Source: Acidobacteriaceae bacterium (GTDB lineage: Bacteria > Acidobacteriota > Terriglobia > Terriglobales > Acidobacteriaceae). From it: a stretch of 37,561 nucleotides of DNA. Below, piece by piece: positions 66-6,835 of the stretch; the stretch's first letter is position 1, and each line of letters starts with the position of its first letter. The position numbers and the translations under genes were made by a program. Location: NCBI GenBank assembly GCA_027365415.1, contig DAHXNK010000014.1:1-37561 (forward strand). The letters run 5' to 3'. Under the pieces are notes generated by a model. That model was not told where the DNA came from. It made no database searches and saw nothing but the letters and a program-made list of their open reading frames with translations.

Positions 66-2827
66 CGATTAAAAATCTTCCGATTCGTCGCAAGCTCGCG
101 TTGCTTCTTCTTTCCTCGACCGTGATGGCGCTCGCTCTGGCATGTGCAGGTTTCACGATTTATGAGCGCGCTGATTTTCGCGCCACCGCTGCCAGCGAAC
201 TTGCCACGCTAGCGGACACGCTGGGTGCAAATACCGCAGCCTCCCTCGCCTTTGAAGACCAGAAAACAGCCGAGCAGATGCTGGGAGCGCTCAAAGCCGA
301 GCATGACGTTGTGGCAGCCTGCCTTTACGATGAGCAGGGCCACATCTTTGCGGTGTACCGCAGAGCCGATGTTCGCTCGTCTGTAAAACTGCCCGCGCTG
401 GGTTCCGAGGGTGCTCACTTTAGCCAGCATTCGCTTACGCTGTTCCGCAGCGTGTCTCTAAATGGAGAAAAAACAGGAACCATTGGTATCGTTTCCGATC
501 TTGGTGGATTTCGTTTGAAGCTGCGGCAGTACGCGAAAATCGCAGTTCTTGTTCTGATTGTTTCCATAATCATCACCTATCTTGCGACGGTTGAGATGGT
601 ACGTCTCGTCAGCGCTCCGCTCGTGCAGCTTGCTTTACTGGCAGAGCAGGTCTCCATGCACGAAGACTATTCGCTGCGCGCCCCTGTACTGAGCCAGGAT
701 GAGGTTGGAACGCTGGTGACCTCTTTCAACCAGATGCTGGAGCAGATTCAACAGCGCGATTTCCTGCTACAGGAAACGAACAATGGGCTGGAGGTACGCG
801 TTCAACAGCGCACGGCTGAGCTTCAATCTGAGATTGCGGAACGTCAGCGAATCGAGGCGGAGTTACGATGGCAGGCAGCCTTTCTGGAGGCACAAGGCAA
901 CGCAACCATCGAAGGCGTTATGGTACGCAATAGCCAGCGTGAAATGATCTTCCAGAATGAGCCTTTTTGCCGCATGTGGAAGATTCCCTACGATAAAGAA
1001 CAGGGAGAGTTGTACGATCCCGGACTGAACTTCTTCGCCAATCTCACCACCGACCCCGCTGCGTTTCTTGAACGATCTGCGTGCCTAGATACACATCCTA
1101 ATGAAATTCAAAGAAATGAAGTGTACATGAAGGATGGTACGGTTCTCGACCGATATTCGGCTCCCGTTCTAGGGAAAACTGGCGAGTACTATGGCAGAAT
1201 CTGGACCTTCCGAGATGTGACGGAGCAGCGACGCAATGAGAATGCGCTGCGTCACGCCAAAGAAGTCGCCGAAGTGGCCAGTCAGGCAAAGAGCGAGTTC
1301 CTAGCCAATATGAGCCACGAAATTCGCACGCCGCTGAATGGTGTCGTCGGCATGACGGAACTAGCGCTGGATACAAGTCTGACTGCGGAGCAACGGGATT
1401 ACATGGAGACGGTAAAACTTTCTGCAGACTTGCTTCTTGGCGTAATTAACGACGTTCTCGATTTCTCCAAGATTGAAGCGGGGAAAATGGAACTGGAAAT
1501 GGTTGACTTTCGGATACGCGAGTGTCTGGAAGATACTCTGAAAACTCTCGCATTCCGCGCGGACGAAAAAGGGCTGGAACTGCTCTGCGATATTGCCGCA
1601 GATGTGCCGGAGATCGTGCAAGGAGACACTGGACGTCTTCGGCAGATCGTCGTCAACCTTGTGGGCAACGCCATCAAGTTCACACACGCGGGAGAAGTAT
1701 CCATCCACGTTGAAAAAGAGGAAGTGCGCGATGACGCTTGCGTTCTCCACTTTACGGTCTCCGATACCGGAATTGGTATCTCCCCTGAAAAGCAGGCCGT
1801 TATCTTCAGCCCCTTTGCGCAGGCCGATTCCTCCACCACTCGAGAGTATGGCGGAACAGGACTAGGCCTGACGATTTCATCGCGACTCGTATCCATGATG
1901 GGCGGCAGAATATGGCTGGAGAGCCAGTTGGGGAAAGGAACACAGTTCCACTTCACGACTCAATTCTTAACCGCTCAGGCCGCCGTTGCTCCGCATGCTA
2001 TACCGACAGAGAGCTTTAAGAATTTGAAGGTGCTGATTGTCGATGACAACCAGACCAATCGCAGAATTTTATCCGAGATGCTGCGCCAGGTTCAGGCAAA
2101 GCCCTACGATGTTGAGAGCGGCGATCTGGCATTATCCAAGCTGCTGGAAGCGCATGCAATGGGGGATCCTTTCCACCTCATCCTGACAGACATGCACATG
2201 CCGCACATGGATGGGTTTATGCTGGTCGAGCGCATCCATCAGAATGCGGAACTGACAGCCCCGGAAGTTATGATGCTAACATCTGCGGGATATGGTGGAC
2301 ATGTTGAGCGCTGCAAGCAGCTTGGCATCACAGCTTACATCCTTAAGCCTATCCGCAGATCCGATCTACTCTTTGCCATCGCTACCGCATTGAAGCAGAA
2401 GCACACTTCTCTGGAGAGCGCGCCTCAGATACAAAACCAGAAGGATGGCACAGAAAGTCTTCGCATTCTCCTGGCTGAAGACAATCGCATCAACCAGAGA
2501 CTCGCAGTGCGCACATTGGAGAAGATGGGCCACACGGTGACCGTTGCCAATGATGGCATAGAAGCATTGTCGTTGCTGGAAGCTGGGATCTTCGATCTGG
2601 TATTCATGGACATCCAAATGCCACTTTTGGATGGAATCGCAGCAACCAGAGAAATCCGCGAAAGAGAGAAGCAGACTCACCGCCACATTCCCATCATCGC
2701 GATGACGGCACATGCGATGAAAGGAGATCGGGAGAAGTGCCTGGAATGTGGCATGGATGGGTACGTCTCGAAGCCAATCCTCCGCACTCAGATTGAAGAA
2801 GCGATTGCCCTTGCATCTGCGAGCTAG
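62..2827 (+). CDS. Hybrid sensor histidine kinase (CHASE8-like, HAMP, PAS, HisKA, HATPase, two receivers)
   Basis: This 921-residue inner-membrane signalling kinase has TM1 at about 12-34, a periplasmic domain at 35-157 resembling the CHASE8 input domain of YfiN, TM2 at 158-178 and HAMP at 180-232. A coiled coil follows, then a PAS domain at about 272-390. The HisKA motif [12 protein letters not shown] puts the phospho-accepting histidine at H419. The ATPase N box ([11 protein letters not shown]) and the G boxes (DTGIGI, GGTGLGL) are intact. Two receiver domains follow, with phospho-acceptor aspartates D710 (LTDMHMP) and D850 (FMDIQMP) and conserved lysines in ILKPI and VSKPI. No HPt domain is present, so a separate phosphotransfer protein is expected if the receivers relay. 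Coupling to a probable YfiR suggests periplasmic repression of the sensor. The stop codon lies 5 bp from a transposon end, so anything originally downstream has been displaced. Confidence 0.93.
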
Positions 2828-2832
2828 ACAAA

Positions 2833-2857
2833 GGCAATAATTACCTTGACTCCACCA
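2833..2857 (+). repeat. Left terminal inverted repeat of the IS1595-type element
   Basis: These 25 bases are the exact reverse complement of 5140-5164. The match ends at 2857/5140, where the next bases differ (A versus G read inward). The repeat contains TTGACT at 2846-2851, usable as a -35 box reading into the element. Confidence 0.95.
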
Positions 2858-2874
2858 AGGGGATAGCAGAGAAT
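2846..2874 (+). promoter_or_regulatory. Putative cargo promoter with its -35 inside the inverted repeat
   Basis: TTGACT (2846-2851) lies inside the left inverted repeat. A 17-bp spacer separates it from GAGAAT (2869-2874), which matches TATAAT at four positions. It would start transcription near 2881 and read the three cargo genes. The same TTGACT in the right repeat faces the transposase with the same spacing. Confidence 0.5.
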
Positions 2875-2942
2875 GGTGGTGGGCGATGATTTTCGTGCGT
2901 GATCTCGCATCCCTGTTTTTTAGGAAAAAGTCGGGAGTCGTA

Positions 2943-3716
2943 ATGCTTCTTGCAGTTTACGCGGATGATAGTGCCGATGCCCGTCACGAAACCATATTCA
3001 CTGTTGGGGGATTTTTGGGATACCCTCACATGTTTACAAAAGCTGAACTTAAATGGGATGCGTACCTACGAAGCAAGAAACTTGATTACTTTAAGGCAAG
3101 TGAGATTGAAAGGCTTGATGGAGAATTTGATCCGCTCAAGTTAATGATGACTCCCTATGCCGCTCGCGCTTTTGCTGAAAGCGTCCGTTATGATCTCGGC
3201 AAAATCATCGCTGAAGAGAATCTAGGTGGAATATCACTGAGTCTCGACGTTAAGGCTTTCCGTAAGGTGCTCTCCGAACATAGTGATTTTTCCAATTACT
3301 TTGAAACTAAAGATTGCAGCGTCTACATGTTTAGGCATTTCATCATTCATTGCGTTGGTTTAATGATTCGAGATATGCCTAAATTTCATCCTGAAATCGC
3401 CTTTGTTTTTGACGATCATTCCAAATGGAAAGAGGCTGAAGAGTCTTATCGATTATTAAAAATTAATTCCCCCTTTTCATCCAGAATTGCATCCATAACT
3501 CATGCTGACGACAAAAAGGTTTGCGCTTTGCAAATGGCCGACCTATGTGCTTACGAGGGGAGGTGCCACACCTTGAACATAATGGGACAACGCGACGAAC
3601 GGATTGAATTTAAGAGCATGGCCAAAAATCATTCATGGTACTCTTTTTCGATGTTTCGTGAGGAACAACTTTTACAGCATTTAATGGAGGCCCGAAATGG
3701 AAAATTGTTCGTATAA
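2943..3716 (+). CDS. DUF3800 domain protein (transposon cargo)
   Basis: This 257-residue protein has DUF3800 hallmarks: an N-terminal strand with acidic residues (AVYADDSAD, D8/D9), then FTVGGFLG, a central FVFDD (D157/D158) and a C-terminal LQMADLCAYE (D200). Such spaced aspartates fit the RNase H-like fold proposed for DUF3800, but catalysis is unproven and the biological role is unknown. The ATG at 2943 was chosen because GGGAG lies 5 nt upstream at 2933-2937 and because the family begins with this strand; an in-frame ATG at 2886 would add 19 atypical residues. It is the first gene of the cargo operon and overlaps the next gene by 20 bp. Codon use is more AT-rich than the host genes around it. 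It could be a nuclease-like accessory or defence factor; that is inference. Confidence 0.8.
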   Translation: MLLAVYADDSADARHETIFTVGGFLGYPHMFTKAELKWDAYLRSKKLDYFKASEIERLDGEFDPLKLMMTPYAARAFAESVRYDLGKIIAEENLGGISLSLDVKAFRKVLSEHSDFSNYFETKDCSVYMFRHFIIHCVGLMIRDMPKFHPEIAFVFDDHSKWKEAEESYRLLKINSPFSSRIASITHADDKKVCALQMADLCAYEGRCHTLNIMGQRDERIEFKSMAKNHSWYSFSMFREEQLLQHLMEARNGKLFV

Positions 3717-3879
3717 CAGCGAACTCGAAAAATTCAACACCGTTCTCCGTAAAGTTATTTCAGTGCCGCGTGCGGAACTACTGAAGCGCGAAAAGGAATG
3801 GAAGCGCAAGCAGAAACGGAAAAAGCAACAACGCAAAAGGAGATATTCAAATGATGTATCAACAAAAACGAATGCTTGA
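3697..3879 (+). CDS. Small Lys/Arg-rich protein (transposon cargo)
   Basis: This 60-residue protein is not recognised as a known family. The N-terminal half (ELEKFNTVLRKVISVPRAELLKRE) looks helical and resembles a short pairing segment. The C-terminal half is strongly basic (KEWKRKQKRKKQQRKRR) and could bind nucleic acid. The start is supported by GGAGG at 3686-3690, 6 nt before the ATG. It overlaps the 3' end of the DUF3800 gene and the 5' end of the zinc-ribbon-like gene, which indicates translational coupling. The position suggests it works with the DUF3800 protein; no function is established. Confidence 0.65.
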   Translation: MENCSYNSELEKFNTVLRKVISVPRAELLKREKEWKRKQKRKKQQRKRRYSNDVSTKTNA

Positions 3880-4147
3880 GCTTTCAGACCTCATTTCTTT
3901 TTGCTTTACATGCAAAGGGTGTGGTATCTCTTTGTCAATTCCAGCATCGGCAAATTTGAAAAGCGGAAGGCTTGAAAAATGCCCTTCTTGCGATGATGTA
4001 TGGATGACTCCCGTAACTGGTTCAGTAAGAAAGTTCTTGGATTTTAAGCAAGCATTCAATTCCCTCACATCATCCTTTGAAGGCGGGAAAGTTGATGGCT
4101 TCACTCTCACTTTAGAGATTGCTTCCGACCCCGTTTCAACCGCTTAG
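3851..4147 (+). CDS. Small protein with CxxC...CxxC zinc-ribbon-like motif (transposon cargo)
   Basis: This 98-residue protein has two cysteine pairs, CKGC near residues 22-25 and CPSC near 44-47, spaced like a zinc ribbon. A polar C-terminal part without a recognised domain follows. AAGGAGA sits about 7 nt upstream of the ATG at 3851; a second ATG follows immediately at 3854. It overlaps the preceding basic small gene by 29 bp in another frame and stops 2 bp before the convergent transposase stop. Gene packing and good ribosome sites argue that it is real. Likely a nucleic-acid- or protein-binding partner of the cargo module; function unknown. Confidence 0.65.
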   Translation: MMYQQKRMLELSDLISFCFTCKGCGISLSIPASANLKSGRLEKCPSCDDVWMTPVTGSVRKFLDFKQAFNSLTSSFEGGKVDGFTLTLEIASDPVSTA

Positions 4148-4149
4148 AG

Positions 4150-5103
4150 TTAGCAGGTCGCTGTTTCTAATCCCTTCCCTGTGAGTTCGGCGAAGGTCAA
4201 CCACTTGCCGACAATCTGAGACAGTACGCGATTGAATCGGCCAGCATCATTCATATCCTTGCGGTTGTTGTACCGGAAGGTTTGCTCATCGAGGTAACGA
4301 AACAGATGGAATGGCTCGACACTCACGTAGGTTCCGTTGATGCCACGCTTCAACAGGCCCCAGAAGTTTTCGAGTCCGTTGGTATGGATGCGACCGTTGA
4401 CGTATTCAACAGCATGGTCAACAACCTTGTGCGCGTAGTCGGTAGCCCAACCCTCCTAGGAAAGCAGCGCGTCGGTGTAGAGCGCCGCGCCAGCTTCGAC
4501 ATGCTTTTTGACTTCCGCTTGCAGTACAGCTTTCTTGCGATTCGAGACAACGATGGTGCGAACCATGCCGCCGTGCTCAAGGATGCCCATGACGGCAGTC
4601 TTGTCTTTGGTTCCTGTGCCAGTGATACGACGGGCTTTGACGCTCAGGTGCATGTTGCGAGCTTTACCGCCGATAAAAGTCTCATCGGCTTCGACTTTTC
4701 CGCCCAGCTTACTACCAAAGGAATCGTCCTGCATGGCGAGCCGAATACGATGCAACATGAACCATGCCGCCTTTTGGGAAACATTGATATCCCGCGCAAT
4801 CTCATAGCTGCTGATGCCATTCTTGCAATTGGTGAGGAGCCAGATTGCAGTGAGCCACTTGTCCAGCCCAATCGGCGAATCTTCCATCATGGTTCCAACC
4901 TTGATAGAAAACTCCCGCTTGGCGTGATGGCTGGAGCAAGTCCAGGTGCGGCGATGCGCCCGGTAGTTGACTTTATCATTGCCACATGTAGGGCACTTCA
5001 CAACTCCATCGGGCCAACGCTGCGCCACAAGATGAGCAATACAGCTATCGGGGTTCGAGAAATATACGATGGCTTCTTGAAGGCTCTTAGGTTCAGTGTT
5101 CAT
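4150..5103 (-). pseudogene. IS1595-family (ISXO2-like) transposase interrupted by an in-frame amber codon
   Basis: The gene reads in one frame from ATG 5103 (GAGGG about 6 nt upstream) to a stop at 4150, but TAG occurs at codon 216 (4456-4458). The N-terminus has a zinc ribbon (CPTC at 37-40, then C56 and HH59-60) and a helix-turn-helix-like segment (ISSYEIARDINVSQKAAW). The ISXO2-like domain supplies D140 (VEADETFIGG) and D211 (LYTDALL). The third catalytic region, HTNGLENFW (E245), and the typical KRGINGTY...RYLDEQTFRYNNR tail lie after the stop. The flanking sequence LLS-stop-EGW suggests a TAC or similar codon mutated to TAG. The 215-residue product would lack the third acidic residue, so the element is probably immobile unless helped in trans or read through. 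Confidence 0.9.
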
Positions 5104-5122
5104 AACATCCCTCACTGTCTAA

Positions 5123-5151
5123 ACTTTAGCAAAAAACACTGGTGGAGTCAA
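5123..5151 (-). promoter_or_regulatory. Putative transposase promoter with its -35 inside the inverted repeat
   Basis: On the minus strand TTGACT (5146-5151) lies within the right inverted repeat. A 17-bp spacer separates it from TAAAGT (5123-5128), a four-of-six match to TATAAT. The predicted start is only about 13 nt upstream of the transposase ATG at 5103. The arrangement mirrors the left end. Confidence 0.55.
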
Positions 5152-5164
5152 GGTAATTATTGCC
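5140..5164 (-). repeat. Right terminal inverted repeat of the IS1595-type element
   Basis: Perfect 25-bp reverse complement of the left end (2833-2857). It is immediately followed by the truncated integrase reading frame at 5165. Confidence 0.95.
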
Positions 5165-5354
5165 AAATTTTGGGCATGAACATGTGCTCACCACCTTCAC
5201 GAGCTACGGCAAGGTCGCAGTAGACCGGCAAGGGGAAATTATCCGGGGAATCGGTACGCCCAAGCAATCAACCCAGCCCGCTATGGAAGACCTTGCGGAA
5301 GCCGTGGTCAAAAGACTGCGGGATGCAGGCGCAAGCCTTCCAGCGGGGCAGTAA
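5165..5354 (+). pseudogene. C-terminal remnant of a tyrosine recombinase/integrase
   Basis: The open frame begins at the transposon edge and gives about 63 residues starting NFGHEHVLTTFTSYG. This is the Box II-type G-H-E...T...Y signature of phage/ICE integrases: the histidine is a catalytic residue and the tyrosine of TSYG is the likely nucleophile. A tail (VDRQGEIIRGI...) follows to a TAA at 5352. All N-terminal and central catalytic parts are missing, and nothing matching them lies to the left of the transposon. It is therefore a severed fragment, unlike the intact P4-type integrase that converges on it 10 bp downstream. It is probably not expressed as a functional protein. Confidence 0.7.
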
Positions 5355-5363
5355 CTCGTTGCG

Positions 5364-6569
5364 CTATGCAGCAGAGCCACGGAAGGGCAGCACCTTGCCG
5401 CCGCGCTGTGTCTGTTCGAGAAAATTCGCCCAGTCCTGCATCATTTTGGCGCGTGGCTCCAGATACAGCGCATGGTTATAGGCGGCGCTGACGGCGTTGC
5501 GGGGGGCGTGGGCAAGCTGCAATTCAATGTGCTCATGCACGTAGCCCTGCTCATGGAGGATCGTGGAAGCGAGTCCACGAAAACCGTGTCCGGTCATCTG
5601 GCCTTTGTATCCCATGCGCTCCAGCCCTTTCAGTATGGTGTTGTTACTCATGGGTTTCTTGGCGTTGCGGTCTCCAGGGAAAAGCCACTTGCCTTCGCCG
5701 TTCAGCGTTCGCAGCATATTGAGCACATCCAATGTCTGTTTGGCTAAGGGAACAATATGGGGAGTCCGCATCTTCATACGCTCGGCAGGAATGTTCCAGC
5801 GTGCCGCCTCGATGTCGAACTCTTCCCACTTGGCCCCAATCAATTCGCTGGTGCGGACAAACGCAAGAGCCATCAGCTTCATGGCCAGCCGCGTGACGTG
5901 AGTTCCTGGATAGACTTCGATAGACCGTAGCAAGCCGGGCAGTTCCTTGGCATCAATGCGGGCATAGTTGGTTTTGCGCGTGGATTTCAAAATGTCGGCA
6001 GGGCGGATTTCGCTCGCTGGGTTTCGCTTCGCATATCCGTGGGCAATGGCGTAGCGGAATATCTGCCCCGTGGTCTCCAAAGCACGCTTGGCAATGTCTC
6101 GCGCCCCGCGCTTTTCAATGGCCTTGGTCATCGCCACCAGCTCCGGCGCTTCAATTTCAGCAATGGGCCTCGCGCCAAGAATGGGCAGAATATCGGCTTC
6201 TATGCGCCGCTTCACATAGTCCGCATGGCGGGGACTCTTCCCCTGCCTCCAATGTTCCAGCCAAAGCAGTGAGACGCTTTGAAAGGAATTTTCCGCTGCC
6301 GACTTCTCGGCCTTGCGCTGCACCATTGGGTTTACGCCAGAAGCCAGCAGCTTGCGTGCCTCTGCGTGGCGATCTCTAGCCAGCGACAAAGACACATCTG
6401 GATAGCTGCCGAAAGACATGAGCTTTTGTTTGCCTTCATGTCTGTATGTCCAACGCCAAATTTTCCCACCAGAGGGTGTTACCCAGAGAAAGAGACCTCC
6501 ACCATCACTGACCTTGTGGGGTTTCGACCCCCGCTTTATGCGCTTGATCTGGATGTCCGTCAACTTCAT
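5364..6569 (-). CDS. P4-type tyrosine recombinase (integrase)
   Basis: This 401-residue site-specific recombinase begins with the DUF4102-type N-terminal arm-binding domain (KVSDGGGLFLWVTPSG...FGSYPDVSLSLAR), followed by a core-binding domain at about 100-200 and the catalytic domain. Candidate catalytic residues are R239 (FVRTSEL), a lysine near 266-268, H328 and R331 (HGFRGLAS), H354 (LAHAPRN) and nucleophile Y364 (AAYNHALY). The start at 6569 was chosen because MKLTDIQIK is the usual beginning and AGAGG precedes it by about 8 nt; 40 upstream codons are open but non-homologous and cross the repeat region. The gene lies just beyond the 3' end of tRNA-Ser(UGA), the usual integration position for this family, so it probably mobilised the element to its left. 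The element's distal attachment copy is not seen in the window. Confidence 0.93.
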   Translation of the reverse strand: MKLTDIQIKRIKRGSKPHKVSDGGGLFLWVTPSGGKIWRWTYRHEGKQKLMSFGSYPDVSLSLARDRHAEARKLLASGVNPMVQRKAEKSAAENSFQSVSLLWLEHWRQGKSPRHADYVKRRIEADILPILGARPIAEIEAPELVAMTKAIEKRGARDIAKRALETTGQIFRYAIAHGYAKRNPASEIRPADILKSTRKTNYARIDAKELPGLLRSIEVYPGTHVTRLAMKLMALAFVRTSELIGAKWEEFDIEAARWNIPAERMKMRTPHIVPLAKQTLDVLNMLRTLNGEGKWLFPGDRNAKKPMSNNTILKGLERMGYKGQMTGHGFRGLASTILHEQGYVHEHIELQLAHAPRNAVSAAYNHALYLEPRAKMMQDWANFLEQTQRGGKVLPFRGSAA

Positions 6570-6588
6570 CAGAACGCCTCTTTTCCAA

Positions 6589-6629
6589 TGTACCCACAGG
6601 CAGAATTGAATATACCCACAAATGTACCC
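6589..6629. repeat. Three TRTACCC repeats upstream of the integrase
   Basis: TGTACCC (6589-6595), TATACCC (6611-6617) and TGTACCC (6623-6629) lie in direct orientation between the integrase start and the tRNA 3' end. On the integrase strand they read GGGTACA/GGGTATA. Their position fits arm-type integrase binding sites or an autoregulatory region; this is inferred from placement. A short inverted repeat (AACCCC...GGGGTT) also lies at about 6678-6705. Confidence 0.45.
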
Positions 6630-6745
6630 CCAGTAGCTTATGGCTTCAATAGTACAGCTTTGGACGTAAAAAGACGAACCCCCCAGCATTTACCGGGGTT
6701 TTCCTGTGATGTTTGGATTTTCCTGGATGTCCTAAAACAAGTTCT

Positions 6746-6835
6746 TGGCGGAGGGAGAGGGATTCGAACCCCCGTTACCCGCAAGGGTAAAGCGGTTTTC
6801 AAGACCGCCTGTTTCAACCACTCACACATCCCTCC
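6746..6835 (-). tRNA. tRNA-Ser(UGA)
   Basis: On the minus strand the acceptor GGAGGGA pairs with TCCCTCC, followed by discriminator G and encoded CCA (6748-6746). The anticodon stem GCGGT/ACCGC encloses loop CTTGAAA, giving anticodon TGA. A long variable arm (TTACCCTTGCGGGTAA) confirms the serine type, and GGTTCGAATCC forms the T loop. Its 3' end is the probable attB of the adjacent P4-type integrase element; the tRNA itself is intact. Confidence 0.97.

Follow-up and report, generated by a model that had tools for sequence, protein, structure and literature searches.

A cargo-carrying IS1595 transposon with a conserved small basic peptide in an Acidobacteriaceae genome

The window analysed here, a stretch of 37,561 nucleotides of Acidobacteriaceae DNA, contains a small element that is best explained, with a probability of roughly two in three, as a cargo-carrying IS1595 transposon with a constant backbone and swappable cargo, in which a small basic peptide would act as accessory or regulator and a DUF3800 protein as defence nuclease. 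The clade to which the element belongs combines terminal inverted repeats (TIRs) of about 24 bp, a transposase, the small basic peptide, 8-bp target-site duplications (TSDs) and exchangeable cargo, and its cargo-carrying IS1595 elements are concentrated in Acidobacteriota. The original prediction had seen in three genes of this element a single functional module, possibly for defence or as a transposition accessory; the genes are real and both roles are supported as possible, while the module is judged below. The features of the element are summarized in Table 1.

Table 1. Features of the IS1595-family element in the window
Feature	Position	Strand	Basis or remark
IS1595-family element	2833-5164		in G000:C55, 2.09 Mb draft genome
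Left TIR GGCAATAATTACCTTGACTCCACCA	2833..2857	+	perfect inverted match to 5140-5164; fits clade TIR consensus
DUF3800 gene, 257 aa, predicted RNase HII-like fold, exchangeable cargo	2943..3716	+	Pfam; predicted model; 24/88 elements
Basic peptide gene, 60 aa	3697..3879	+	profile match in 83/88; two-helix model; dN/dS; co-inheritance
Cys4 zinc-ribbon-like protein, 98 aa, optional cargo accessory	3851..4147	+	relatives in 6 other elements
IS1595-family transposase frame, TAG-interrupted	4150..5115	-	PF12762 on both halves; NCBIfam IS1595 model; translation
In-frame TAG in transposase	4456..4458	-	Tyr in nearest relative L044
Right TIR	5140..5164	-	perfect match to left TIR

Inside the TIRs three forward-strand ORFs, in the order DUF3800, basic peptide and Cys4 protein, converge on the reverse-strand transposase. 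As originally described, successive ORFs share 20 and 29 bp, and together they fill the space up to the transposase stop, the last of them finishing 2 bp short of it, and each is preceded by a motif resembling a ribosome-binding site (GGGAG, GGAGG and AGGAG). The cargo is also AT-richer than its surroundings, with a GC fraction of 0.43 against 0.53 in the transposase and 0.54 in the flanks. With three passenger ORFs within its TIRs the element qualifies as a transporter IS (tIS).

The proposed assignment to the IS1595 family holds: besides the perfect 25-bp TIRs, PF12762 (DDE_Tnp_IS1595) matches both halves of the transposase (E 2.3e-16 and 1.1e-15), and NF033547 of NCBIfam is above cut-off on the N-terminal part. 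Owing to the in-frame TAG no full-length transposase would be made unless the codon is suppressed, and a search for a TSD of the window copy found none (1 of 8 positions matching). Target duplications get lost through later rearrangement, and for this reason the element stays in the family without one. With the transposase domain and the TIRs present and the transposase frame interrupted, it is a defective IS1595 member, and this copy can probably move only with help in trans.

The upstream histidine kinase gene terminates at the left TIR (window 2780-2840). In genome G305 of the same genus, where the element is absent, the orthologue is 82% identical and several codons longer, and homology to G305 breaks off at the left TIR; both observations indicate that the left flank probably underwent rearrangement once the element had inserted. 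No further copy of the window TIR was found elsewhere in the genome with up to 3 mismatches allowed, and the nearest relatives of the transposon are from Acidobacteriaceae MAGs. Rfam delivered no family in the window at gathering threshold except tRNAs, and nothing relevant to a DUF3800-associated RNA motif within the element at E up to 5.

Two neighbouring observations concern the same genome. On the right, 5160-5354 (+) resembles by eye the fragment of an integrase C-terminus, with no Pfam match, and the element is adjoined by a complete tyrosine integrase (5364-6689, -) and a tRNA-Ser (6746-6835, -); window 5160-6835 probably marks the border of an integrative island. In a second IS1595 element (L158, G000:C109, about 82.1-84.2 kb) the transposase frame is uninterrupted, a peptide gene is present and the TIRs differ from those of the window element.

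Relatives of the DUF3800, peptide and Cys4 genes in other genomes repeatedly adjoined IS1595 transposases. An alignment of five transposases served as query for a scan of the genome collection, which fetched 80 loci by the transposase alone, so that cargo was not a selection criterion; together with eight elements found earlier the set comprises 88. Their host labels are mostly Acidobacteriota, with a few elements in Deltaproteobacteria, Binatus, Actinobacteria, Chloroflexi, Planctomycetota and others. Both TIRs lie within the fetched DNA in 72 of the 88, with the clade consensus GGCAATAATATACTTGAC, and a perfect 8-bp TSD is present in 53 of 70 elements with readable flanks, whereas random re-pairing of ends gave at least 7 TSD matches in only 4.6%. 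The elements are 1.7-5.9 kb long (median 2.7 kb), and cargo GC is below flank GC in all 67 of 67 elements (mean 0.50 vs 0.58).

The basic peptide is a component of the transposon backbone and is inherited with the transposase. An iterated profile finds it in 83 of the 88 elements whatever the cargo, or in 83 of the 85 that are not cut by a contig end; L038, L080 and L111 lie on contigs ending less than about 130 bp from the transposase, and only in L069 and L096 is it seemingly absent. An independent profile built from eight seed peptides, none taken from the 80 census loci, matches 67 of these 80 at E <1e-3, compared to 2 matches in 0.54 Mb of flanks. Both flank matches adjoin TIR-like ends without a transposase, and a search for their second TIR ends found none. 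The gene is convergent with the transposase in 68 of the 83 elements, mostly within 75 bp of its stop, and on the transposase strand in the other 15, often near the far TIR. Peptide similarity tracks transposase similarity (Mantel r 0.275, 0 of 2000 permutations). Two elements of a single genome, L174 and L175, show 91% DNA identity across the 1306 bp that cover transposase and peptide, and 86% across 44 bp at the opposite end, and their cargo genes are unrelated; transposase and peptide are also common to the pairs L027/L087, L042/L047 and L085/L086. In the pairs window/L044 and L042/L047 the conserved blocks are offset by roughly one Cys4 gene length; just one element of each pair has a Cys4 gene, placed between peptide and transposase. 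It is this occurrence with any cargo, together with pairs sharing a backbone around unrelated cargo, that places the peptide in the backbone.

The AlphaFold model of the peptide shows two helices forming a hairpin, the second of them long and basic (pLDDT 83); a fold search of the PDB with this model gave no match. Scanning 53 members identified no Pfam or NCBIfam family, apart from weak hits scattered over 1-2 members each, and a consensus-like peptide matched nothing in plasmids. The peptide is a second core protein of the clade and, judging by family libraries and the searched literature, apparently one not recognised so far.

That the peptide is a general IS1595 feature is not supported: in a small survey of Acidobacteriota and plasmids, IS1595 transposases of about 30-44% identity showed no matching peptide, and below about 45% it was absent bar one borderline exception. 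The exception, on a Methylocystis rosea plasmid (L195, 4373-4555), is an unannotated 60-aa ORF that overlaps the stop of an IS1595 transposase and scores E 0.0045 against the peptide HMM in a 13-locus ORF set; small downstream ORFs at L161 and L163 gave no peptide match. A divergent IS1595 element on a Roseomonas marmotae plasmid (L196, 3143-6986) has perfect inverted repeats of 27 bp, a 266-aa gene, a PIN-domain gene and, in the slot equivalent to that of the peptide, an unrelated small protein of 61 aa.

The DUF3800 protein of the window passes the PF12686 cut-off (25.4 vs 21 bits, E 2.6e-5), and this family is the commonest cargo found, present by local profile in 24 of the 88 elements and in 20 of the unbiased 80. 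The originally suggested RNase H-like fold is matched by the predicted model (pLDDT 83, pTM 0.84): the best Foldseek match is RNase HII with probability 1.00, and VIA-align gives Z 10.5 and 3.6 A over 165 residues. The fold is shared over DUF3800 residues 2-215 together with a D-[DE]-D-D acidic set, whereas sequence identity to RNase HII is just 12%. Of the acidic residues singled out beforehand, D8 never varies across 15 cargo DUF3800 proteins, position 9 is always D or E, and conservation exceeds 90% at D157 and D200; D158 is not conserved. The active site of RNase HII consists of four carboxylates, and the set D8, D/E9, D157 and D200 is consistent with it. By predicted fold and these four residues the DUF3800 protein would be an RNase HII-like nuclease. 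Searches at sequence level gave no match to PDB chains, and neither plasmids nor phages yielded a relative of this DUF3800 protein; NCBIfam holds no family for the window cargo proteins, and none of the three window proteins matches a PADLOC model at E up to 1.

The Cys4 protein, with zinc-ribbon matches below threshold in the window, is conserved elsewhere (43% identity in L025) and occurs in 7 of the 88 elements. In 5 of these 7 it accompanies DUF3800 (p 0.015), a figure from biased sampling, as four of the seven were found via the Cys4 search and one is the window itself. Co-occurrence of all three genes in other IS1595 elements, originally proposed as a check, is seen in L025, L027, L042 and L055, which with the window makes five. 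Cys4 is missing from 19 of the 24 DUF3800 elements and occurs without DUF3800 in L030 and L036; outside the clade it adjoins another gene in L031 and a divergent transposase in L026, and no relatives were found in plasmids. The gene is best regarded as an accessory that elements may have or lack.

Pfam scanning of 71 cargo proteins gave DUF3800 (10), AIPR (4) and single cases of MmeI, DNA methylases, AAA_15, GmrSD, Mrr, HEPN, SocA/Panacea, IrrE, RelA/SpoT, Clp protease and some DUFs, to which PADLOC adds AbiU, type IIG RM and PD-Lambda-5. The identified cargo is mostly of defence, RM or TA-like type (AbiU/AIPR, type IIG RM, methylases, GmrSD, OLD-like ATPase, IrrE, SocA), unlike the flanking genes. 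In a control set, 71 flanking proteins gave matches to 180 families, among the matches listed mostly metabolic, transport or regulatory, and the PADLOC matches of this set come chiefly from kinase-type and generic models. An assignment was obtained for less than half of the cargo proteins, and the defence theme is drawn from these; judged on that part, the cargo slot appears to hold mostly small defence genes.

Two cargo families recur in the set. One, mostly unassigned and of about 270-330 aa, carries an N-terminal motif like RLVSLWDML (L030, L037, L046, L047, L059, L071, L077, L082, L083, L087, L114), and the other, likewise without assignment, carries the motif LIYxGxL...HKHxIRK (L043, L084, L085, L100, L103). 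Two cargoes are unusually large: a 945-aa protein in L082 (3583-6420), which probably corresponds to the MmeI-type IIG restriction enzyme assigned by Pfam, and in L074 (5466-8172) a DNA methylase next to another gene. The type IIG and PD-Lambda-5 matches probably stem from L082 and L074. In L067, L097 and L101 the cargo frame, DUF3800 twice and a DNA adenine methylase once, continues stop-free into the peptide, and a fusion is possible. L180 (2528-4014, G084:C7) has two TIRs, a 7/8 target repeat and no transposase, and it carries DUF3800, the peptide and a membrane protein.

In the preferred reading a fixed transposase-peptide backbone between TIRs carries one or few exchangeable cargo genes, the slot of the window being occupied by DUF3800 with the optional Cys4. 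The peptide would bind nucleic acid or the transposase and assist or restrain transposition, and would not be a dedicated DUF3800 partner; the DUF3800 protein may act against foreign or hybrid nucleic acid in defence, and the platform would shuttle small defence genes. A transposition role is favoured by the nearness of the peptide gene to the transposase stop, by co-inheritance, by independence of cargo type and strand and by the basic helical shape, and is opposed by L180, which keeps peptide and DUF3800 without the transposase, and by the three run-on frames. Those same loci would suit a peptide that serves the cargo, as a generic regulator, chaperone or antitoxin-like partner keeping diverse mobile effectors tolerable, as would the frequent position of its gene just 3' of, or overlapping, a same-strand cargo gene, and the slightly greater likeness of peptides in DUF3800 elements than transposase similarity predicts (p 0.035). 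Such a role is nevertheless unlikely, as the peptide accompanies any cargo type, is encoded on the other strand from DUF3800 in 5 of 23 cases, and is conserved with the transposase whereas cargo gets replaced. The more far-reaching version of the preferred reading casts the peptide as a second protein dedicated to transposition, the elements of this large clade as compact platforms swapping single defence genes, and the unassigned cargo as home to many further defence genes; it is held tentatively, at somewhat less than even odds.

The three-gene module of the original prediction fares worse and is mostly unsupported. Overlapping genes with their own ribosome sites, five elements holding all three, and the association of Cys4 with DUF3800 in its biased sample all speak for one dedicated three-protein unit; yet the peptide is found in nearly all elements without DUF3800, and Cys4 and DUF3800 often occur apart. 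The three genes assort independently, which makes a three-gene machine very improbable. Scarcely credible is a peptide frame that encodes no protein and arises from conservation of the DNA or RNA itself, for instance of a terminator lying between the convergent genes where the frame usually sits. The peptide is under protein-level constraint where synonymous sites are near saturation, with a dN/dS of about 0.1-0.4 among pairs above 62% amino acid identity, a selection that itself lowers the ratio; the subgroup on the transposase strand, the confident two-helix model and the lack of an Rfam family within the window element also argue against it.

Among known systems, tIS of the IS1595 family such as tISCpe8 and MTnSag1 carry passenger genes and share an IS1595-type transposase and TIRs of about 25 bp around the passengers, whereas transposase clade and passengers are others here (PMC5704250, PMC9330008); the available portions of these accounts make no mention of a universal small basic protein or of exchangeable defence-type cargo. 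Tn7-like transposons likewise have a backbone with diverse cargo including defence systems, but are far larger, with an unrelated transposase and several transposition proteins (PMC8649781), in contrast to the single transposase and small peptide in 1.7-5.9 kb of the present clade. The DUF3800 proteins known from rare class 2 CRISPR loci, described as RNase H-fold nucleases and counted in favour of the preferred reading, share the Pfam family and the predicted RNase H fold (PMC10910872, PMC12669027); here DUF3800 is IS-borne, and no CRISPR genes or TPR domain were found.

An IS is commonly pictured as a single transposase flanked by two repeats. A second protein conserved almost throughout the clade would alter the annotation of such elements and opens a mechanistic question to direct testing. 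The changing cargo slot on a constant backbone offers an inventory of candidate defence genes, most of them without an assignment, and the clade represents a natural experiment on the acquisition and exchange of passengers by small transposons.
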